DNA from: a virus
DNA length: 44,090 nt
Virus record (IMG/VR): IMGVR_UViG_3300009149_000073
Coordinates: 1-44,090 of that record
Reading direction: 5' to 3' (one strand)
This document shows positions 10,455 to 28,756 of the stretch, in pieces (the stretch's first letter is position 1; each line of letters starts with the position of its first letter). The notes beneath the pieces were generated by a model. That model did not search any database. It saw only the letters and a program-made list of their open reading frames with translations, and was not told the DNA's origin. Position numbers and translations under genes: made by a program.

Positions 10455-10504
10455 CTATTTACTATAAAAAGAAGATGGTAGTAAGAACATACTTTGATTC
10501 TAAT
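10455..10504 (+). other. Stranded promoter and 5' stub of the gene at 11412
   Basis: CTATTTACTATAAAAAG (10455-10471) is followed by ATG at 10475 and codons for MVVRTYFDSN, then an out-of-context tail and stop. The active gene 0.9 kb downstream begins IVIRTFFDRSN behind a very similar box. The stub is therefore best read as the original start region, cut off by the HNH-RHH cassette. Protein match is 5 of the first 8 residues; this is by-eye alignment. Confidence 0.65.
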
Positions 10505-11195
10505 ATAGAGACCCCTTTATGTCTCTATTAGTCTTACTACATAGTGGTTGTAGATTAGTATAATGGTTTAACCTAATAACATCCTCTTTCGTTATTGCGG
10601 TGGATAATGGTATTATATGGTCAATATCCCAACCATAATTCAATTCGCCATTATATAGACCATGATTATCCCAGCTCATCCATGGTTCAAATTTAGATTC
10701 AATATATTCTTTTAACTCATCGAATGGGCAGTCAATAATGTTGTGAGTCTTCGAACGTTTAGTATAACCATTTCGAGTTAAGGATTGTCTAACTATGGTA
10801 CGCATATTACCCTTAAGTTTATATAGGGGGTCTATTAGTCTCTTATTTCGAACATATTCATTTATTTTATCTTTATTTTTGTGATATTGACGTTTAATTT
10901 GTTCTCGATTATTATCCTTCCACGTTTTCTGTTTTATCCTTATTTTCTCTTTATTCTTCTCCCTATATTCTTTTTGATATTCTTTCTCTCTATCCAAGTT
11001 TTTTATGTAGAATTCGGCTCTCTTTTCTTTAACTTTTTCGGAATTTTTATCATATGAGCGCTTACTTTTCGCTTTGATTTTATCAGGATTATCTTTAGCC
11101 CACCTTAATTGGCGTTTACGTATTTTATCCTTATTACGTTTACGATACTCAATATCGTATAATCGTTTGGCCTCCTTTCGTCTATTATCACTCAT
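10500..11195 (-). CDS. HNH homing endonuclease of cassette A
   Basis: This 231-residue protein has a long Lys/Glu/Tyr-rich repeat region (residues 1-120, units like EYRKRNKDKIRKRQ) that is probably an extended DNA-binding helix or coil. A conserved linker follows (RTIVRQSLTRNGYTK), then a C-terminal HNH nuclease domain: FEPWMSWDNHGLYNG, YGWDIDHIIPLS with the catalytic Asp-His, and HYTNLQPLCSKTNRD. It is a clear paralogue of the protein at 27971-28714. Its ATG overlaps the RHH stop (ATGA). It runs opposite to the flanking tail genes, and its stop lies inside the stranded stub of the gene it displaced. Confidence 0.88.
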   Translation of the reverse strand: MSDNRRKEAKRLYDIEYRKRNKDKIRKRQLRWAKDNPDKIKAKSKRSYDKNSEKVKEKRAEFYIKNLDREKEYQKEYREKNKEKIRIKQKTWKDNNREQIKRQYHKNKDKINEYVRNKRLIDPLYKLKGNMRTIVRQSLTRNGYTKRSKTHNIIDCPFDELKEYIESKFEPWMSWDNHGLYNGELNYGWDIDHIIPLSTAITKEDVIRLNHYTNLQPLCSKTNRDIKGSLY

Positions 11196-11335
11196 TTAAT
11201 TGAATCTTTAATCAATTGTCTAATATGCTTCGACATATTAATATTAGCGTTTTCGCAGAACGTTAAGTATCTTTGTTTAAGTTCTGGTGTTAGTCTAATG
11301 TTAATGTCTTTAGTTTTATTTCGTTTTTTGTCCAT
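11192..11335 (-). CDS. Ribbon-helix-helix (CopG/Arc-like) protein of cassette A
   Basis: The protein has 47 residues: a basic N-terminus (MDKKRNKTKD), a beta strand INIRLTPELKQRY and two helices ending NMSKHIRQLIKDSIK. This is the ribbon-helix-helix order of small dimeric DNA-binding repressors. I chose ATG 11335 because the longer open frame upstream codes for an implausible hydrophobic run and crosses the promoter box. The stop overlaps the HNH start. A gene of the same kind precedes the other HNH gene at 27801. A role in repressing the cassette or guiding the nuclease is inference. Confidence 0.75.
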   Translation of the reverse strand: MDKKRNKTKDINIRLTPELKQRYLTFCENANINMSKHIRQLIKDSIK

Positions 11336-11338
11336 ACA

Positions 11339-11348
11339 TATAAATATA
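11339..11348 (-). promoter_or_regulatory. Candidate late promoter box for RHH-HNH cassette A
   Basis: On the minus strand TATATTTATA lies 3 bases before the RHH ATG, so a transcript from it would be nearly or fully leaderless. Confidence 0.45.
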
Positions 11349-11386
11349 GTACTAATTCGAAAAAGGGTGACTTTAATCTTTTTGTT

Positions 11387-11402
11387 GATATTTACAATAA
11401 AG
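11387..11402 (+). promoter_or_regulatory. Candidate late promoter box for gene at 11412
   Basis: GATATTTACAATAAAG, nearly the same as the box at 584-600 and related to the stranded copy at 10455. It lies back to back with the minus-strand box at 11339. Confidence 0.5.
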
Positions 11403-11411
11403 ATTATTATA

Positions 11412-12821
11412 ATAGTTATTAGAACCTTTTTTGATAGAAGTAATACAATTATTTCAGATAGTTGGACGAACACTGGTTTAAACCCAGTGACGGAATTGTA
11501 CTATGGTGGCACCACAGGTGAAACTGAGTACACAAGGTTCTTATTCTATTTTGACGTTGCGAGATTACAGAATTTCTACACTGGTGGCACATACCCAGAC
11601 CTAACCAAAATGACTCATACTTTACGTATGATTAATACTGGTTGTTTGGATAAGAATCTATTAGGAGAAAAGAATTGTGACGGTAAGGATAGAGCATCTT
11701 CATTTGATTTAATATTATTCCCAATAACTGATGATTGGGTAGGCGGAACTGGATACGATTATGACGATTGTACTTATACTGCTGGTGAGCCAGCTTACAA
11801 GGCCGTACCATCTAATTGGTACTCAGCTACCACTCTAAGTGCTTGGACACAAGCAGGGACGATAACAGGAGCCACTAGTGGGGTTACAATTGCAACACAG
11901 AACTTCGAGTTAGGTAATGAAAATATAGACATCGACATCACTAGCCATGTGAACGGACTAATTACTGGTGGTACTAACTACGGATTAGCACTGGCATATC
12001 AACGGGAATACGAAGTGTTAATTACAGACGTACACCAATACGTGGGCTTCTTCACTCAACATATTCAAACAATATACGAACCTTACGTAGAAACTACTTA
12101 TTCAGATTCAATAGTTGATGATAGACATGAGTTCTATCTAGATAAAGCGAACAAACTATACCTTTATGTTAATATTGGTGGAGAACCAACTAACCTTGAT
12201 TCCGTGCCGACTGTTCAAGTATTAGACCAAGATGGAACAGTGTTCTCATCTTACACCTCAAGTGCCGTTACACACGTTACAAAGGGTGTCTACTGCATCG
12301 ATGTAACTGTCCCAACTACAAGTAGTTACGAGGATTGTGTCATGTTCAACGATGTGTGGTCTGGGGTTACGCTAAACGGTATTACAAGACCTGACATTAC
12401 GCTAGATTTCGCATTAAAATCTGCTGACGATTGGTACAATATTGGTGACAATAATATGCTACCTAAGAGTGTTGGGATTATAGCATCTGGCATCCAAAGA
12501 GGAGAGGAAATCAAGAGAGGAGACATACGTAAAGTCATCCTAGCGATGAAGATTCCTTACACTACAAATCAAGAGCAATCAATAGATGATGCTCAGTATA
12601 GAATCTACGCAAAGGAGGGTAAAAATCAATTAACAATTGTAGATTATCAACCAATTCAAAGGGCTAATAATCACAATTATTTCCTAATTGATACGGCTAG
12701 TTTAATACCTACAACCTACTACGTAGACATCAAAATCATAACCAATAATGAGGTTAAAACCCTCAAAGAACAACTTTATTTTGACATAGTTTCACAGTCG
12801 GAATTGAGGGATTCTCAATAA
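11412..12821 (+). CDS. Virion structural protein, 5' end replaced by cassette A
   Basis: The protein (about 469 aa) is beta-rich with many Thr, Gly and Tyr residues and no transmembrane segment. It resembles tail or fibre-type virion proteins; the family is not identified. Segments include ELYYGGTTGETEYTRFLFYF near the N-terminus and a C-terminal region with repeated beta strands. No ATG is available at the expected N-terminus. Alignment with the stranded stub at 10475 places the start at ATA 11412 (IVIRTFFDRSN); ATT at 11403 or 11406 is an alternative. The open frame extends further upstream but that part overlaps the RHH gene and its promoter. Confidence 0.7.
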   Translation: MVIRTFFDRSNTIISDSWTNTGLNPVTELYYGGTTGETEYTRFLFYFDVARLQNFYTGGTYPDLTKMTHTLRMINTGCLDKNLLGEKNCDGKDRASSFDLILFPITDDWVGGTGYDYDDCTYTAGEPAYKAVPSNWYSATTLSAWTQAGTITGATSGVTIATQNFELGNENIDIDITSHVNGLITGGTNYGLALAYQREYEVLITDVHQYVGFFTQHIQTIYEPYVETTYSDSIVDDRHEFYLDKANKLYLYVNIGGEPTNLDSVPTVQVLDQDGTVFSSYTSSAVTHVTKGVYCIDVTVPTTSSYEDCVMFNDVWSGVTLNGITRPDITLDFALKSADDWYNIGDNNMLPKSVGIIASGIQRGEEIKRGDIRKVILAMKIPYTTNQEQSIDDAQYRIYAKEGKNQLTIVDYQPIQRANNHNYFLIDTASLIPTTYYVDIKIITNNEVKTLKEQLYFDIVSQSELRDSQ

Positions 12822-22201: not shown

Positions 22202-25200
22202 TTACGCGTTACCCTTATCCTTGTCCAACAACTTATCTATATTCCTCAAGACACCATCAATGTCGTCATTGATTCTTAGACCCCTATCGGTCATCTTAAC
22301 CTTGTTCTCATTTATGGTTTGGTCTTTCTTATCTACTAAAGATTCCATGAGCCTGTTCATCCAGATGTCATTTCGCTTATCTTTAACCTTAACCAACTGC
22401 TCAGTTAAGACTATCTTCTCCTCACGTAGTAGTTTACCGACTAACTTGATGTCTTCACCCATTTCTGGAATATCACCACCTAGGTCATCACCACCAGCAT
22501 CTCCTTCACCACCTAGGTCCTCACCGCCCATGTCTCCACCAATATCACCACCAGCTCCACCTTCATCTTCGATATTCACATCTTCATCTCCAAAGTCTAT
22601 ATCTTCTCCTCCCATTCCGCCTCCACCGAAGCCTCCGCCTCCACCAGCAGGTCCACCGTCTTCACCTTCTTCACCAGTTTGTCCACCCTCTCTAGCAACA
22701 TCTATGTCACCATATAGTTTGTCCACCTTATCGAATAGTTTAGTATTCTTAATAACAGACGCAGTGTTAGCCAATTCAGCGGCAGCAGCTTTCTCCATTC
22801 TTTGTTCAAGAAGGTCTTGCTTAATCTCTTCGTTACTCCACCCTAAAATTTCTCTTCTGGCTCTAGTCATTGACATAATACCAAATCCATTACCAGCATC
22901 AGCAACCGCTGTTTGAATAGCGGTGAACTGTTGTTGTAAATTCTCAATCCTAAGCATCTTAGCTTGGGTTGAAGGGTTATTCATCGTGATTGTGAAGTTA
23001 TCCAAATCATCATCAAATCCTAATAGATATAGGTGAATGATTGCCATCTTATTTAGCTCTTGGATAATAGCTTGTTGTAGTCTATTAATAGTTCTAGCGA
23101 ATCGAATATCCATCAACGCTAAATTCTTTCCATCACCAACTGGGTCGTCAAATCCTAGGAAGGACTTTGGTACTCTCAATGATGTGAATAACTTTCTTTG
23201 TAGGTACTCGATATCCGCGATTTGGTCTAGGTTCTGCGCTCCTGGAAGTGTGTCAATCGGTGTAGCTGCATTCTCATCTCTTACTGGGATGAAAATATCT
23301 TGGTCGTTGGCCAATTGATTGAACCTCAAGTCGATTTGTCCAGTTTGTGAATCCACAACACTGGCACGTTTAAAGTTGTTCGCAATATCATTAACGTATA
23401 CTTGCACATCTTCCACATCGATATTACCAACGTATACTTTAAATACTCTACGCTCTGGCGCTCTGGTAACCCTATATACTAGCATCGCATCTTCAGATAG
23501 TAACAATTGTTTCCATATTCTTCTGGCCTTTTCTAACACACTGGTACCATATGGTAAACGTCTGTCGTCACCCAATAATCGGAAGTGTGCAATTTGCCAT
23601 GCTTGGAATTCTAAATCTCTTCCTCTCCAGAAGAATCTAACCTTCTCTTCTTTACCAGCCTTTTCTCTTTGGTCGGTATCAATCTTAGTACTGTTAAGTT
23701 TAGCGGTAATAGTATCGTACACACCACCTTCTCTACGCTCCATTTCGAAGTTAGGAAGTTGCTTTGCACTTATAATACCTTTGGTGTCAGTGATGTTTAA
23801 GTATACGAAGTTATCTCCGTACTTACAGTTGGATAAAAAGACCCCAGAGTTTCTCGAATAGTTTCCATTTATATCCTTACCACACACAGGGAAGTTATGT
23901 CTATCGTGCTCCCCGTTAGGTCCTACAGCTTCTAAACAATAAACATCAGAGGTTTCGTTTAATTTAACAACGGAAACTACTTTATGATTTAATAAAGATT
24001 TTTCCTTAGTTTTACCTAGATAAATCGCCTTTGCTTTTACATAGTTTTTATCTAAAATTAAGTTTGGTCTAACTGATAAAACAAAGTCAAAATAATTTTT
24101 ATTTGTTTTCCTAAAAATAGTTTTCTTTAGGGTTGTTGGGTTAATTGATTTGGTTATGTCTTTCCTTATAGTGTAGGTTTCCTTAAATAAGGCGATAAAC
24201 TTATTATCGTATTTTAATAACTCGGCCAATTTCTTCGCCCCGATATACCCTTCGGTATTCTTTGTAATATTAGAAATATAGTCTAAACAAGAGTCACTGA
24301 TTTCAATGGTCATACCTTTCTTAGTCTTTTCCCTAAATTCGGTATCAGACCAATTGTTTAACATTTTTTCAGAACGAACGATGTTATGTTCAGAATGTAA
24401 GTTACTTGAATTGTATTCTTCAAAATCTTTAGGGTAAACACCAGACATCTCATTAGAAAGGCGTTGGCGCCTTTCGTCAGACCTGAGATACCTATCAATA
24501 CCTTCCATCCTTTTTTTGACTACTTCAGGAGAACCTAACACTTTATTAAAATGTTCTATATGTAACTTAAAATGGTCTGAATGGGTTAATCTAACCAAAT
24601 TAGTGGGCTTATTATTTAATTTGTTAAAATCTTGATGATGTGTATCAAACTGACCACCAACTCTTTTTTCGTAACCTAAGTCTCTAACACATTCATGTGC
24701 GACCATTGAATGCGTGAACTTATATTTAGTGGTACTAGGATTATACACTTTTTCGTAACCATTGATGCAATCTTTTTTCTTGTCACTTTTTCTAGTGTAA
24801 AATGGCATTAACGACTGTCCACTTATTAATTCATCTGCCCTCTTATAAGAACCATCTCTAAGCATGTATTCGTGGTCAGGTGTCGTATCCACATACGTAC
24901 CGTCATCCAACGTAATCCTTATTAATTCGCTATTTCTCCTAGTTAAATCACACCATGTTATTTTACTGGGTACTATTGCTTTAGTGTTATCCTGAACGGC
25001 ATAAGACCAAACTTCTTCACCATCTTTAATTTTATTAGATAATTCTTTAATAGTTACTTCGGTTCCATCTAATAAAGGTATTATACTATCTTCTCTAATA
25101 GGCATATTTCTAACCCACATAGGTAGAGTGGTATGTATGTCCATTCTGTTGAAGAACAAATCCTCCAAAATACCCTTAACTCTAGGACTATCCGAATAGA

Positions 25201-25564
25201 TGTTCAATACTCGACCAACATCGTTTACAGTTGTGGACTCCTCCATTAAGATGTCTAGCGTAGCTGCAATCTCAGGATAGAACTCCATATTCTCGAAATC
25301 GGAATACGCTCCGATTCTGGTCATCTCGTATTGGATGGATTGTTGGAAAAGATTATCTTCCACCTTACCCCATACTAGACCTAAGTACTTGTTTTGTTTG
25401 GCTTGTAAAGCCCTAGTTTTGTATTCTTCTTGCGATGTGGTTCTTAATAACTCACCATCACCAATGTTGTACTTATTGCTACTCGCCTTTTCTGGTTCGA
25501 TACCATTAGGGGTCGTAATCCTGTTCAATCGTTGGAATACTGTTAAATCTTGTTTGCTAGCCAT
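22202..25564 (-). CDS. gp20: Portal protein, gp20-like, with intein and acidic tail
   Basis: The spliced protein would have about 695 residues (T4 gp20: 524). It forms the head-tail connector through which DNA passes. Diagnostic segments are PMWVRNM|CKYGDNFVYLN across the intein, LPYGTSVLEKARRIWKQ, AMLVYRVTRAPERRVFKVYVGN (T4-type RAPERRVWYVD) and FLGFDDPVGDGKNLALMDI, RFARTINRLQQAIIQELNK. The C-terminal quarter contains an acidic Gly-rich low-complexity tract (around residues 990-1055, with GGGGGFGGGGMGGEDIDFGD and GGDMGGEDLGGEGD) before a final helical part. Similar tracts occur in the genes at 18091 and 31218. The intein lies within residues 155-579. Confidence 0.9.
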   Translation of the reverse strand: MASKQDLTVFQRLNRITTPNGIEPEKASSNKYNIGDGELLRTTSQEEYKTRALQAKQNKYLGLVWGKVEDNLFQQSIQYEMTRIGAYSDFENMEFYPEIAATLDILMEESTTVNDVGRVLNIYSDSPRVKGILEDLFFNRMDIHTTLPMWVRNMPIREDSIIPLLDGTEVTIKELSNKIKDGEEVWSYAVQDNTKAIVPSKITWCDLTRRNSELIRITLDDGTYVDTTPDHEYMLRDGSYKRADELISGQSLMPFYTRKSDKKKDCINGYEKVYNPSTTKYKFTHSMVAHECVRDLGYEKRVGGQFDTHHQDFNKLNNKPTNLVRLTHSDHFKLHIEHFNKVLGSPEVVKKRMEGIDRYLRSDERRQRLSNEMSGVYPKDFEEYNSSNLHSEHNIVRSEKMLNNWSDTEFREKTKKGMTIEISDSCLDYISNITKNTEGYIGAKKLAELLKYDNKFIALFKETYTIRKDITKSINPTTLKKTIFRKTNKNYFDFVLSVRPNLILDKNYVKAKAIYLGKTKEKSLLNHKVVSVVKLNETSDVYCLEAVGPNGEHDRHNFPVCGKDINGNYSRNSGVFLSNCKYGDNFVYLNITDTKGIISAKQLPNFEMERREGGVYDTITAKLNSTKIDTDQREKAGKEEKVRFFWRGRDLEFQAWQIAHFRLLGDDRRLPYGTSVLEKARRIWKQLLLSEDAMLVYRVTRAPERRVFKVYVGNIDVEDVQVYVNDIANNFKRASVVDSQTGQIDLRFNQLANDQDIFIPVRDENAATPIDTLPGAQNLDQIADIEYLQRKLFTSLRVPKSFLGFDDPVGDGKNLALMDIRFARTINRLQQAIIQELNKMAIIHLYLLGFDDDLDNFTITMNNPSTQAKMLRIENLQQQFTAIQTAVADAGNGFGIMSMTRARREILGWSNEEIKQDLLEQRMEKAAAAELANTASVIKNTKLFDKVDKLYGDIDVAREGGQTGEEGEDGGPAGGGGGFGGGGMGGEDIDFGDEDVNIEDEGGAGGDIGGDMGGEDLGGEGDAGGDDLGGDIPEMGEDIKLVGKLLREEKIVLTEQLVKVKDKRNDIWMNRLMESLVDKKDQTINENKVKMTDRGLRINDDIDGVLRNIDKLLDKDKGNA
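23828..25102 (-). other. Atypical intein with HNH endonuclease in the portal gene
   Basis: Intein of 425 residues (precursor 155-579) inserted between WVRNM and CKYGD. Block A reads EDSIIPLLDGTEVTIKEL, block B DTTPDHEYML (His231). Block F is VYCLEAV with Cys543, and the C-terminus is GVFLSN followed by Cys580. The first residue appears to be Pro (or Met if the border is one codon earlier), not Cys, Ser or Ala, and the penultimate residue is Ser rather than His. A Cys in block F would fit a class 3-like route, but Trp and Thr of the WCT set are absent (Tyr233, Leu577). The endonuclease is HNH type: DTHHQDFNKLNN, PTNLVRLTHSDHFKLHIEH. Confidence 0.8.
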
Positions 25565-25850: not shown

Positions 25851-25860
25851 CTAAATATCA
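25851..25860 (-). promoter_or_regulatory. Candidate late promoter box
   Basis: TGATATTTAG then ATAAAAG on the minus strand, 16 bases before ATG 25834 and overlapping the end of the terminase gene; resembles the box at 584. Confidence 0.4.
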
Positions 25861-27678
25861 TCGCGTACCACTGAAGAGCCATAAATATTTACCTTCTGGG
25901 TCTTGCATGTTTCTACTTATATTTCTATTGAATGTTGGTGGTTTACCAGTATCCTTCTTCTTACCCCTCGGTACGAATCCATTACCACTAAGAACATCTA
26001 AGTCTACTGGGTCAGCGCTATTCATGACCCAACTACCTAACATGTTCTTAGTTTTGGCCTTGAATGCTTTCAACTTCTTAAAGGAGAATTCCATAACGAA
26101 TAATGCCATAGCCATTGCCATGATAAGGTCATCATGTTTACCAGTGGCATGGTCAGGTCTGCCGTTCTTGTAGATGAACGTATTCATCTCAGTAATCAGT
26201 CTACTAGACCTAATCTTAATCCCTTTATCCGCACCTTCGTCAGAGTTTATTCTAACCATCTTTTCGAACTGAGCCACCAACCTACTTCGGTCAGCACCTA
26301 CTTGGAAACCTGGAGTTTCATTCTTCTCGTGATATTTCCCCTCTTCTTTTCTCTTCCTAAGAGCTTTGGTTCTCTCTTCGTAGTATAGGTTCGGATACTT
26401 CATTTCCTGTAGCTTCAGTGTGGTGGTTATACCCATACCACCTGTAATATCCACAATCAACAACGCATTACCATACAACCTACCATATTCGTCTAACACT
26501 ATCGCCAGCTTATCTGGTGGTACCTTACCGCGATACTCTACCACTTGCTCCATGGTAGTGAAATCAATAATAGTAAACGTGGACCAATCATCTCCATCAC
26601 CTCTAGAGACATCGGAAGATAGGATATACTCGTGGTCCTCAATAGGTTTCTGCCATATCCAAGTTACATTGTCTTTACCATCAAGGAATGCTGGTTCCAT
26701 GACATTAACAGTCTTATGATACTCAATGTATTCCTCATCGACTACGTTATCACCAGAACCAAGGAACGATACGTCAAGCTCTTGAGCAATCATTCGCTTG
26801 TCATTATTCATCGCTCTGCACATCTCTTCGTACCAGCTTGAGGTCGGCTTAAAGCCATCCTTAACCATCTCATCATAAGATTCGAACGTGAATTTGGTTT
26901 CTACTATAACAATCTTACTAGTCTTATTCTCGTCAGACCATTTCCACCATTTAAGGTCTTTGTTATATCGTAAATCTTGATACCAACGCATTTCAATCAC
27001 ATTGAAATCGTTCTCACCCAATTGAGAGTTTTCGTAGGTCTCATAGTATAGCGGGTCTTGACCGTTTGGTGTTGAAATAAGAGTAGCTCTACCACCAGTA
27101 CCCAATGCTGTAAGTGCCGCACCGAATAGCTCTTTACCGTTGTCGATAAATGCTGCCTCATCCATAATCAAATATGTTGGAGTATACCCACGCAAAGCAT
27201 CCTTAGATGTTGCAACGGCCTTAATTCTAGAACCGTTAGGTAGTTTGATTTCTTTCTTGGACTCGGTATCATACAGCTTACGCTTTTCCTTCTCAGGAGT
27301 ACCGTAGTATTCAGAACCCCATACCCATCTAGGTAGTTGGTTGATAAAGTCTTTAACTTTACCTAGGAATTCAAATGCCATATCTTGTTTGTTCGCGACA
27401 ATTAGAATCGCTTCAGGATTCTCTTTATCTGCGAACCCTGTTCGCACCGCAAGGAATGCGGCTGTGGTTGTGGAGATACCAGCCTGTCTAGGCTTGGCCA
27501 CCAGATTCATTCTGTACTTTTCGTAATCCCCTATAATCTCTATCTGCTTAGGGAATAGCTTGAATGGAACAAAACCATTTTGGGTCTTGTCGAACGTTCT
27601 AAAAAACGTTTCAATAGGGTAGGTAGGGTCTAAAATACACTTACCATACTCTTCTAATATCTCTGATGCTGTGAGCAA
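25858..27678 (-). CDS. terL: Terminase large subunit, gp17-like; 5' end recoded
   Basis: The ATPase-nuclease motor that packages DNA. The ATPase half has a variant Walker A, AKPRQAGIST (residues 61-70), Walker B YLIMDEAAF (about 169-177) and the coupling motif STPNG (202-206). The nuclease half shows the RNase H-like acidic residues: Asp356 in SSDVSRGDGDDWST, Asp410 in LLIVDITGGMG and Asp516-Asp517 in GKHDDLIMAMAMAL. Length (606 aa) matches T4 gp17 (610). The start is TTG 27678, and no ATG is available; the upstream codons are GAT and an in-frame TAA. A stranded ATG copy of the same first nine codons lies beyond the RHH-HNH cassette at 28709-28735. Confidence 0.93.
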   Translation of the reverse strand: MLTASEILEEYGKCILDPTYPIETFFRTFDKTQNGFVPFKLFPKQIEIIGDYEKYRMNLVAKPRQAGISTTTAAFLAVRTGFADKENPEAILIVANKQDMAFEFLGKVKDFINQLPRWVWGSEYYGTPEKEKRKLYDTESKKEIKLPNGSRIKAVATSKDALRGYTPTYLIMDEAAFIDNGKELFGAALTALGTGGRATLISTPNGQDPLYYETYENSQLGENDFNVIEMRWYQDLRYNKDLKWWKWSDENKTSKIVIVETKFTFESYDEMVKDGFKPTSSWYEEMCRAMNNDKRMIAQELDVSFLGSGDNVVDEEYIEYHKTVNVMEPAFLDGKDNVTWIWQKPIEDHEYILSSDVSRGDGDDWSTFTIIDFTTMEQVVEYRGKVPPDKLAIVLDEYGRLYGNALLIVDITGGMGITTTLKLQEMKYPNLYYEERTKALRKRKEEGKYHEKNETPGFQVGADRSRLVAQFEKMVRINSDEGADKGIKIRSSRLITEMNTFIYKNGRPDHATGKHDDLIMAMAMALFVMEFSFKKLKAFKAKTKNMLGSWVMNSADPVDLDVLSGNGFVPRGKKKDTGKPPTFNRNISRNMQDPEGKYLWLFSGTR

Positions 27679-27708
27679 ATCTTATTAATTTAGTTTAATC
27701 GTTATACA

Positions 27709-27718
27709 TATAAATATA
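27709..27718 (-). promoter_or_regulatory. Candidate late promoter box for terL
   Basis: TATATTTATA on the minus strand, followed by TGTATAACG. A near copy with the same TGTA after it lies at 28747 before the stranded terL start, showing the promoter was duplicated too. Confidence 0.5.
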
Positions 27719-27775
27719 CCTACCAACTCAGATATTAATTAATAAGATAAAAAGTAGTGTTTTTATCATACTATC

Positions 27776-27785
27776 TCTATTTATA
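27776..27785 (+). promoter_or_regulatory. Candidate late promoter box for cassette B
   Basis: TCTATTTATA then ACAAATTAAGAG, 15 bases before the RHH ATG at 27801; divergent from the terL box. Confidence 0.4.
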
Positions 27786-27800
27786 ACAAATTAAGAGATT

Positions 27801-27971
27801 ATGAGACGAAAATTAAAAGACACCGAAAAGAAAGTTAGGTTAACTATAACCATCAATCCAGTATTGGGGAGGGAACTAACAGACCAACACGCTAATATAT
27901 CGAAACATATTGAATGGTTGGTTTATCAAGATATGTTAAAGAATAATACAATAACAGAAATGCCTCTATAA
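27801..27971 (+). CDS. Ribbon-helix-helix protein of cassette B
   Basis: A 56-residue protein (MRRKLKDTEKKVRLTI...) with a basic N-terminus, a strand VRLTITINPVLGRE and a helix-turn-helix ending ISKHIEWLVYQDMLK. It matches the layout of the cassette A protein (INIRLTPELKQRY, NMSKHIRQLIKDSI). The stop TAA overlaps the HNH ATG (TAATG). It was too short to be obvious as a gene, but its pairing with HNH twice in one genome supports it. A role in repressing its own operon or in target recognition is inference. Confidence 0.75.
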   Translation: MRRKLKDTEKKVRLTITINPVLGRELTDQHANISKHIEWLVYQDMLKNNTITEMPL

Positions 27972-28714
27972 TGAGTAAAATAATAGAAGAGAAAAAAGAG
28001 GCTAAACGACTATATGATATAGAATATCGTAAAGCTAATAGAGAAAAAGTAAATACCCGAATGAAGAATTGGCGATTGAATAATCCTGATAAGGTTAAAG
28101 AATATCACAAGAACGGGAAAATCAACAAATCGACTCAAGCTAAAGAATATCGAAAAGCTAATAAAGACGAATTAAATGAAAAATCTAAAGAATACTACCA
28201 AAAGAATAAGGAAGCGATACGGATAAAATCCAGAGAGTATCAATCTCAGAATAAAGAAAAATTAGCTGAGTATTATAAACAATATCGGGAAAACAATAAA
28301 GATATCATCAAACAGTATCATAAGGATAATAGTGAAACTATCAGAGTAAAACAACAAAATAGACAAAATCATCGTCTAATAACTGAACCGCTATACAAAC
28401 TAAAGCATAACACTAGGACGCTTATTAGAAATTCTATCACACGGCTAGGGTATAGAAAAATTAGTAAGACACAGGAAATTCTCGGATGTTCTTTTGGTGA
28501 GTTTAAAGGACACCTTGAAGAACAGTTTGAACCGTGGATGAATTGGGATAATAGAGGTCTTTATAACGGAGATTTCAAGTATGGTTGGGATATAGACCAT
28601 ATTATACCGTTGGATGCGGCAGTAACGGAAGAAGACGTACTTAAATTAAATCATTATACTAATTTACGACCATTATGTAGTAAGATAAATAGGGTTATAA
28701 AGAGAAACTTCTAA
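27971..28714 (+). CDS. HNH homing endonuclease of cassette B
   Basis: A 247-residue paralogue of the cassette A nuclease. The N-terminal 130 residues are a Lys/Glu/Tyr/Asn-rich repeat region (units such as EYYQKNKEAIRIKSREYQ with about 14-residue spacing). Next is TLIRNSITRLGYRKISKTQ, then the HNH core FEPWMNWDNRGLYNG, YGWDIDHIIPLDAAV and HYTNLRPLCSKINR. The stop TAA (28712-28714) is formed by the complement of a Leu codon of the stranded terminase stub, so the cassette ends in the target gene. It is transcribed opposite to terL. Confidence 0.88.
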   Translation: MSKIIEEKKEAKRLYDIEYRKANREKVNTRMKNWRLNNPDKVKEYHKNGKINKSTQAKEYRKANKDELNEKSKEYYQKNKEAIRIKSREYQSQNKEKLAEYYKQYRENNKDIIKQYHKDNSETIRVKQQNRQNHRLITEPLYKLKHNTRTLIRNSITRLGYRKISKTQEILGCSFGEFKGHLEEQFEPWMNWDNRGLYNGDFKYGWDIDHIIPLDAAVTEEDVLKLNHYTNLRPLCSKINRVIKRNF

Positions 28715-28756
28715 TATCTCGCTAGCTGTTAACATATATCTTTACATATAAATATG
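28709..28756 (-). other. Stranded promoter and 5' stub of terL
   Basis: Minus-strand CATATTTATA (28747-28756) precedes ATG 28735 and nine codons encoding MLTASEILE, identical in protein to the first nine residues of the active terL. The codons differ at the start: ATG TTA ACA GCT AGC versus TTG CTC ACA GCA TCA. The last 13 bases (GAGATATTAGAAG) are identical and mark the break point. After it, the stub reads into the end of the HNH gene. Confidence 0.85.

Follow-up and report, generated by a model that had tools for sequence, protein, structure and literature searches.

The RHH-HNH gene pair inserted at the 5′ end of the terminase large subunit gene (terL) in the viral DNA analysed here (IMG/VR record IMGVR_UViG_3300009149_000073, 44,090 nt, hereafter the window) is very probably a homing endonuclease element of the kind represented by WHO in yeast, which replaces the end of the gene it enters. 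We found an endonuclease gene placed between a complete target and a displaced fragment of it at terL, at a second cassette of the window (cassette 2), at the loci L016 and L033, and at about a dozen other loci.

The terL locus and its two 5′ ends

The features of the terL locus are as follows.

25858–27678, minus strand: active terL, T4-type terminase large subunit, 606 aa, TTG start (ORF; Pfam Terminase_6N; phrog_2 terminase)
27651–27678, minus strand: restored terL 5′ end TTGCTCACAGCATCAGAGATATTAGAAG (sequence comparison with terL relatives)
27651–27663, no strand assigned: direct repeat copy 1, CTTCTAATATCTC, common to the stub side (repeat comparison)
27709–27716, minus strand: cassette-borne late-promoter-like box TATTTATA, 38 nt upstream of the restored terL start (putative promoter)
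27778–27785, plus strand: late-promoter-like box TATTTATA, 23 nt upstream of the RHH gene (putative promoter)
27801–27971, plus strand: RHH protein, 56 aa, its stop overlapped by the HNH start (ORF, relatives)
27971–28714, plus strand: HNH endonuclease, 247 aa (ORF; PHROG match; motif conservation)
28708–28735, minus strand: stranded terL stub ATGTTAACAGCTAGCGAGATATTAGAAG, the resident original 5′ end (comparison with relatives)
28708–28720, no strand assigned: direct repeat copy 2, CTTCTAATATCTC, with the HNH stop codon inside (repeat comparison)
28747–28754, minus strand: resident late-promoter-like box TATTTATA upstream of the stub, at the native terL promoter position (relatives)

The active terL starts at 27678 and the stub, which occupies the ancestral position of terL, at 28735. 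As the first-pass annotation had described, both copies encode the same nine residues when TTG is counted as methionine; 7 of their first 15 nt differ and the next 13 are identical, at both edges of the insertion. The RHH and HNH genes lie between stub and active start, antisense to terL, in the opposite orientation already recorded for them. The terL ORF is complete on one side of the cassette and has its own start. As had been proposed, the target gene is restored rather than destroyed. We rejected a group I intron or intein in view of the antisense orientation of the cassette genes and the position of the whole terL ORF to one side of them. A promoter box followed by TGTA at both copies had also been put forward. 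The box TATTTATATGTA is indeed upstream of both, but it is not special evidence, since the window has 15 copies of TATTTATA, often directly ahead of genes, and in the relatives L172–L175 the native terL has TATTTATATGTA as its promoter-like box, followed by TGTA. An assembly error is unlikely because a second IMG/VR contig (L001/L005) shares the cassette junctions, with 99.985% identity over 6.9 kb.

In 79 relatives without the cassette the 5′ end of terL sits at the stub position and has the same promoter-like box, and no HNH relative was found within 2.5 kb upstream of these genes as far as the contigs reach. The match of the stub therefore reflects orthology and not chance, which bears out its reading as the resident terL 5′ end. 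The exact empty allele predicted on first pass (ATG TTA ACA GCT AGC followed by the terL body) was not found in viral contigs. Nor did any cassette-free relative carry the TTG/CTC version that had been named as contrary evidence; L174 and L175 start with TTG and continue with TTA, and the CTC at codon 2 of the active terL is unique among 80 terL relatives. The restored end TTGCTCACAGCATCAGAGATATTAGAAG was absent from other viral contigs except the near-identical L318/L001 contig, a pattern search of viral contigs for a donor gave nothing new, and among annotated phage records the terL region matched a single uncultured one at the DNA level, over a short stretch. For the window's terL itself the comparisons establish only the resident nature of the stub position. 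Because neither a donor nor a close empty allele was found, the foreign origin of its active 5′ end is argued by analogy with L033 and cassette 2, and a foreign, cassette-borne end is the best reading. The motif TAACAGC, present in terL stubs and missing from active copies, is a candidate sensitive core.

Displaced gene ends at other loci

L033 carries a terL cassette at the same site. Its stub is identical (27/27) to the cassette-free L230, L238, L242 and L246, whose terL bodies are also the closest to that of L033, at about 87% nucleotide identity. By contrast, active codons 3–5 (ACA ACG ACC) showed an 11/12 nt match to the clade of L209, L211 and L215, against 7/12 for L033's own clade. Judged by these matches, the L033 stub belongs to the resident lineage, the active 5′ end to another lineage, and the body again to the resident one. 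A similar organization was observed at cassette 2.

10475–10498, plus strand: stub ATGGTAGTAAGAACATACTTTGAT, the resident 5′ end of the gene now running to 12821
10500–11195, minus strand: HNH endonuclease, 231 aa, 52% identical to the terL-cassette HNH
11192–11335, minus strand: RHH protein, 47 aa, with a TATTTATA box at 11339–11346
11412–11435, plus strand: restored 5′ end ATAGTTATTAGAACCTTTTTTGAT, matching another lineage (L254, 23/24 nt)

Here the stub agrees at 23/24 nt with the unoccupied site of the relative phage L004 (L085), and the active 5′ end, at 23/24 to L254, matches L085 at only 18/24 positions before switching to L085-type sequence. L016 has the same arrangement. The restored start reads ATA instead of ATG, with a TTG 27 nt upstream, and the promoter box is degenerate; restoration may therefore be imperfect at this locus. 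A candidate sensitive core here is AGAACATAYTTTG in the stub, against AGAACCTTTTTTG in the active copy.

These comparisons refine what the first-pass annotation had suggested, namely a homing cassette carrying a synonymous replacement for the 5′ end of its target. An active end that came with the cassette is supported, but it appears to be a diverged donor allele rather than a purpose-made recoding: at the window's terL no residue is changed, while L033 (MSFTTTEIF against MLTAQEIF) and cassette 2 (VIRTFFD against VVRTYFD) have amino-acid differences. Loss of the recognition site, also part of that suggestion, is plausible.

When we scored protein duplications between the two flanks of each HNH locus, 14 of 110 loci reached at least 46, compared with 4 of 219 mismatched pairs. 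This count is a lower bound, because automated scoring misses short stubs such as that of the window's terL, which scores 37, inside the background. On inspection about 16 loci have end duplications, in terL, IF-3, primase, sigma-70, HAD, tail and other genes, at 5′ and also at 3′ gene ends. In IF-3 the stub is closer than the active end to all nine natives, and in the HAD gene (L055) comparison with natives did not tell the stub from the active end. Summed over the stub/active pairs with IF-3 left out, 119 of 226 third codon positions differ, against 90 of 452 first and second positions, an excess which indicates that the copies diverged as working genes. No end duplication could be detected in most HNH relatives (about 85%); either their stubs are too short or lost, or these are ordinary intergenic insertions.

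Sequence comparison places the same end replacement in cultured Flavobacterium phages. Relative to the HNH-free elemoA_13-1A, elemoA_7-5A differs in an HNH gene and about 40 nt of foreign start on the next gene, past which the two are 100% identical over 700 nt; the elemoA_7-5A locus has no stub. In elemoA_2-5C the start codon of the native erf is where the HNH gene begins, and a chimeric erf comes after it. Working genes that are donor/resident chimeras, and fragments that are resident ends, were found among L033, cassette 2, IF-3 and the elemo isolates. Among phages of Flavobacterium sp. BAL314 the cassette is present in some and missing from most, with nearly identical sequence around it otherwise, which makes them a cultured system in which end replacement can be tested.

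Cassette proteins, mechanism and rival readings

The HNH protein of the terL cassette consists of a helical N-terminal array and a WDIDHIIP...NLxPLC HNH motif. Within WDIDHIIP...NLxPLC..N the residues W206, D207, D209, H210, N227, N231, C236 and N240 are invariant in 18 relatives, and the last codons and stop codon of the gene lie within target-derived sequence. The protein matches a PHROG HNH endonuclease, its Pfam HNH matches fall below the curated cut-off, a PDB profile search gave no sequence match, and the AlphaFold model has low confidence over the HNH domain. Membership in the WHO protein family (intein-like endonuclease domain plus zinc finger) was rejected, as the protein is of HNH type with a helical N-terminus. 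The 56-aa RHH protein had no family match; its relatives match CcdA, NikA-like and RHH_1 families weakly. Many HNH relatives have no RHH gene, or an HTH partner in its place. Between L016 and L033, which share a 241-bp block, the RHH proteins are 91% alike and the HNH proteins 46% alike, at different targets, which makes RHH unlikely as a target-specificity factor. The pairing of a nearly constant RHH with varied HNHs and targets leads us to infer that RHH probably regulates the bidirectional promoter region of the cassette.

We envisage that the HNH enzyme would cut a resident target near the gene end, for terL within about the first ten codons, and that the break would be repaired from a co-infecting phage bearing the cassette. 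Towards the gene body, the recipient would recombine with the intact gene of the donor and so acquire the donor 5′ end with its start codon and promoter. At the opposite edge, the distal end of the HNH gene would become linked to the resident 5′ end, either with the donor's own stub as homology arm, as in the WHO model, or through microhomology. The product would be a chimeric working gene (donor end and resident body), then the cassette, then the resident end stranded as a stub. The new end presumably escapes cutting by its own enzyme, and the phage would therefore keep its essential gene and be immune. We give an even chance to the broader proposal of a widespread phage class of non-intron homing cassettes that invade essential genes and swap their ends, at 5′ ends together with promoter and start codon, use the stub as homology arm in the next round, and share a module of about 240 bp (RHH and two-way late promoters) among HNHs of different target specificity.

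A very unlikely alternative is a local event resembling target-site duplication, in which a few resident codons ended up on either side of the insertion and the useless copy then drifted. The perfect 13-bp direct repeat around the terL cassette would fit such an event, as would the L024 stub/active pair with its 94% DNA identity. However, L033 and cassette 2 contradict it: the L033 stub, supposedly the decaying copy, is the one that matches resident relatives throughout, the working copy there matches another clade, and at cassette 2 the foreign sequence again sits in the working copy. The third-position bias is not what drift in a dead copy would produce, and the terL pair has a sharp boundary, with seven differences followed by none. 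We give still less credence to the stub as a separate small gene or leader peptide, for although it retains a start codon and a promoter-like box, it encodes exactly the terL N-terminus at terL's ancestral position and runs directly into the HNH 3′ end.

The gene pair could also be a toxin-antitoxin-like or regulatory module, with RHH as antitoxin and HNH as nuclease toxin, inserted beside terL by chance. The RHH/HNH overlap resembles such operons and 4 of 12 RHH relatives match the CcdA antitoxin weakly (best E 3e-4), but the frequent absence or exchange of the RHH partner and its near constancy beside dissimilar HNHs at different targets make this highly improbable, and the constant feature, the duplicated target end, would be left unexplained. 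More plausible, though we doubt it, is ordinary intronless homing like that of the T4 seg/mob genes, in which the HNH gene is intergenic, flanks are co-converted, and the stub, left by illegitimate repair on one side, is a meaningless scar that does not serve as homology arm. T4 homing co-converts flanks and one-sided repair with microhomology junctions is documented (PMC2988022); HNH stop codons in target-derived sequence are expected from end-to-end joining, and one elemo locus has no stub. Against this, different phages have a stub at one and the same site (terL in the window and L033, cassette 2 in the window and L016), and the insertion lies inside coding sequence rather than between genes. 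Ordinary homing is in fact a sub-case of end replacement, differing in whether the stub has a function, and sequence alone accommodates the stub both as scar and as homology arm.

Relation to known homing elements

Homing endonucleases have been thought to enter essential genes only with the help of splicing (introns, inteins), by tolerated gene splitting, or at intergenic sites. WHO elements represent a fourth way, end replacement, known at 3′ ends in eukaryotes. In yeast FBA1 the endonuclease gene stands between a full-length chimeric target, composed of a recipient part and a donor end, and a fragment that was formerly the end of the recipient gene (Coughlan et al. 2020, PMC7282813); the donor end gives resistance and the target gene still works. 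The phage cassettes likewise have an endonuclease gene between a complete chimeric target and a stranded resident end. However, WHO elements combine an intein-like endonuclease with a zinc finger and act in yeast nuclei at 3′ ends (PMC7282813), whereas the phage cassettes have an HNH gene with or without RHH or HTH, occur in many genes and at both ends, and in their 5′ form must carry the promoter and start codon as well. Mobile ORFs also replace C-termini in mitochondria, in atp6 of Allomyces and in atp6, atp9, cox2 and nad3 of Glomus (Beaudet et al. 2013, PMC3630166). There too an endonuclease ORF comes with a foreign end that has become fused to the resident gene, and the native end is displaced downstream, but their enzymes are LAGLIDADG or GIY-YIG and only C-terminal ends are involved.

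In phages, the T4 seg/mob genes are non-intron endonuclease genes that adjoin essential genes and spread by cutting the neighbour with co-conversion of flanks (PMC2988022). They differ in being intergenic or gene-splitting (mobE in nrdA, mobA at gene 60) and, except for segD, co-oriented with their neighbours; the passages of the review that were consulted describe no displaced gene-end stub or restored end. HNH genes near terL and other essential genes have been tied to recombination tracts (Barth et al. 2023, PMC10448857; Skunavirus, PMC12724721), and a text search of these two papers, the first on exchange boundaries, found no description of end replacement or stranded stubs. We found no report of end-replacing homing from phages, none that involves HNH or RHH, and none at 5′ ends. 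The first-pass annotation had known of no RHH-HNH version of an insertion that restores its target; precedents for the idea exist in yeast and fungal mitochondria, and it is the phage, HNH, 5′-end form that appears to be undescribed.

The evidence extends end replacement to phages, with an unrelated enzyme family, at both 5′ and 3′ ends, and to many genes, among them terL, IF-3, sigma factor and primase. It would explain why the ends of essential phage genes beside nuclease genes look like foreign alleles; if the broader proposal is true, repeated homing would make such gene ends a patchwork of foreign alleles. End replacement looks like a general way for homing elements to invade essential genes without killing them.

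The terL locus and its native start

The window, an IMG/VR virus record of 44,090 bases, is from a T4-like phage (its terL matches Pfam Terminase_6N and its portal gene Portal_T4), and its terL cassette is organized as follows.

Features of the terL cassette
25858-27678, minus strand: terL, starting TTG CTC ACA GCA TCA GAG ATA TTA GAA G
27801-27971, plus strand: RHH gene, between both terL 5′ copies
27971-28714, plus strand: HNH gene, between both terL 5′ copies, its stop codon within the 13-bp repeat
28735-28708, minus strand: terL stub, ATG TTA ACA GCT AGC GAG ATA TTA GAA G, 1 kb upstream of the active start

All sequences cited for this terL in the first-pass annotation, which had proposed a homing cassette with a recoded active start and a stranded ATG copy, were found at the locus, and the cassette junctions are the same in an independent contig. 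Since the whole terL ORF lies intact to one side of the cassette, we rejected an intron or intein. Elsewhere, the portal gene (22202-25564) carries an intein whose first residue is apparently proline (MWVRNM/PIREDSI...VFLSN/CKYGDN); the native form in the portal gene of relative L002 is MWVRNMCKYGDN.

To identify the original copy we compared 80 terL loci (79 once the window's own twin is set aside), plus L002/L004 and L003, whose terL is 88% and 60% identical to that of the window, respectively. A TATTTATA-like box precedes terL in most of these relatives, the native N-terminus is MLTxxEI[LFY] in nearly all of the set, and the start is ATG in all but two (L174 and L175, TTG TTA), a few start calls requiring a shift by 1-2 codons. 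The window stub stands where native terL begins, preceded by the native box, and in its codons it most resembles L172/L173 (ATG TTA ACA GCT CAA GAG ATA TTA). In the 79 loci, L002/L004 and L003, we found no HNH relative in the 2.5 kb preceding terL, as far as the contigs extend. A cassette-free terL with the TTG/CTC start, which would have spoken against the proposal, is absent from the set, where CTC as second codon occurs only in the window's active copy. Of the expectation that cassette-free terL starts ATG TTA ACA GCT AGC, the start position held, but the exact empty allele was not found, nor did a pattern search of viral contigs find an independent donor of the active 5′ end.

Sister loci and cultured Flavobacterium phages

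In another phage, L033, this terL site also holds an RHH-HNH cassette. The L033 stub, ATGCTAACAGCACAAGAAATATTTAAA, agrees at 27/27 positions with the cassette-free L230, L238, L242 and L246, which are also the nearest relatives of its terL body, while the ACA ACG ACC codons of its working start, ATGAGTTTTACAACGACCGAAATATTTAAAGAG, match the L209/L211/L215 clade instead (11/12). The same swap pattern occurs in cassette 2 of the window (10475-11435), whose site also bears a cassette in L016: the stub matches L085, the L004 phage's empty site, at 23/24 positions, the working 5′ end matches lineage L254 at 23/24, and past the junction the target body is again L085-type (AGA AGT AAT AC). These sister cases are direct evidence of the swap: the stub is what remains of the resident end, and the working gene is a donor/resident chimera.

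The clearest empty/filled comparisons come from cultured Flavobacterium phages of the elemoA group. The HNH relative of elemoA_7-5A (44% identical over the matched part) is missing from more than 60 sister records. This phage and elemoA_13-1A are 100% identical over more than 700 nt, reaching about codon 14 of the gene next to the HNH gene, of which the first ~40 nt, adjoining it, form a different start (MKKSKSVNLKKLN vs MSCTSHQVELERLH). In elemoA_2-5C, another HNH gene begins on the first 26 nt of the native erf, and the erf that follows is foreign in its first two thirds and native in its last quarter.

Breadth of gene-end duplication and a possible shared expression module

We collected HNH relatives from three viral scans and compared the flanks on either side of each HNH gene. 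Protein matches scoring at least 46 between flanks of one locus were found at 14 of 110 loci; among 219 mismatched pairs there were 4 (Fisher p ~1e-4), the threshold having been picked after the data were seen, so that the 14/110 count is descriptive. By inspection, about 16 loci have end duplications, at 5′ and 3′ ends.

Loci with duplicated gene ends, by inspection (target names read from protein sequences rather than from database matches)
5′ end: terL (two loci), cassette 2 gene (two loci), L024, L050 (terminase)
3′ end: L055 (HAD phosphatase-like), L067 (primase-like), L110 (IF-3), L039 (sigma-70), L031 (tail-like)
3′ end, further loci: L006, L007, L012, L017, L155

In L006, L007 and L030, displaced residues of the neighbouring gene form the C-terminus of the HNH protein (NFWKSGLSNKTT, INAELSIDF). 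All 9 native IF-3 genes are closer to the stub than to the working end. Because differences between stub and active copies favour third codon positions (119/226, vs 90/452 at first and second positions together; twelve pairs, IF-3 excluded), the copies are best read as alleles that diverged while working. At L269 (2151-2987), a GIY-YIG gene gives rise to an equivalent structure, having stranded the 33 N-terminal codons of a HAD-like gene at its 5′ end; in a separate swap, an HNH cassette replaced the C-terminus. This HAD-like gene therefore has a stub at both ends and two flanking end-swapping elements.

In the terminase gene adjoining the L050 cassette (region 857-1016), an insert of exactly 50 nt lies inside the Walker A motif (GGTS/A). 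The insert has in-frame stops and a hairpin of 20 bp (-34 kcal/mol), and past it the frame continues in phase over 360 residues. The arrangement is reminiscent of T4 gene 60, whose 50-nt translational bypass has a link to a homing endonuclease (PMC5009743). The 362-kb phage contigs of L015 (G043) and L017 (G044) carry about 10 and 9 genes of this HNH family, respectively, some broken by stops.

A TATTTATA box lies upstream of RHH in all four divergent 5′ cassettes and ahead of the restored target in three; in the fourth, window cassette 2, the box is TATTTACA and the restored start is ATA, not ATG (both within 11385-11435), so that either this ATA or a TTG lying 27 nt upstream may serve as initiation codon. 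L016 (3751-3991) and L033 (3644-3880) have in common a 241-bp block of promoter region and RHH with 90% DNA identity, their HNH proteins being 46% alike and their targets different. Because the block is shared despite differing HNH proteins and targets, we think that RHH acts as a regulator of the common promoter region, with HNH setting the target; the arrangement suggests that HNH genes were swapped onto a shared expression module. In seven loci (L025, L026, L027, L029, L046, L051 and L065) RHH is replaced by a different small partner ahead of HNH, by eye a MerR-like helix-turn-helix protein (MKAKDVMxKYxITRRTLxNWVKKG).

A proposed gene-end-replacing homing mechanism

The cassette anatomy is that of the yeast WHO model (PMC7282813), in which the resident allele is cut near a gene end and repaired from the element-bearing chromosome, the resistant end coming with the element and the old end being displaced to provide homology in the next round. 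The closest known mechanisms are WHO at FBA1 and mobile ORFs that replace the C-termini of mitochondrial genes (PMC3630166); a WHO protein itself was rejected, since the enzyme is intein-like there and HNH here. The HNH protein would thus cleave the resident allele close to one end of the gene, and the break would be mended from a cassette-bearing phage. The recipient would gain a presumably resistant donor end along with the cassette, its old end being displaced and kept as homology for the next round; a 5′-end cassette would also have to supply promoter and start codon. In T4, homing cuts are followed by co-conversion and one-sided microhomology repair (PMC2988022), and the first junction could have arisen in this way. 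In a search of mainly open-access papers we found no phage case of gene-end replacement, and an unseen report is possible. The interest of these cassettes lies in their 5′-end form, their breadth across genes and the availability of a cultured test system.
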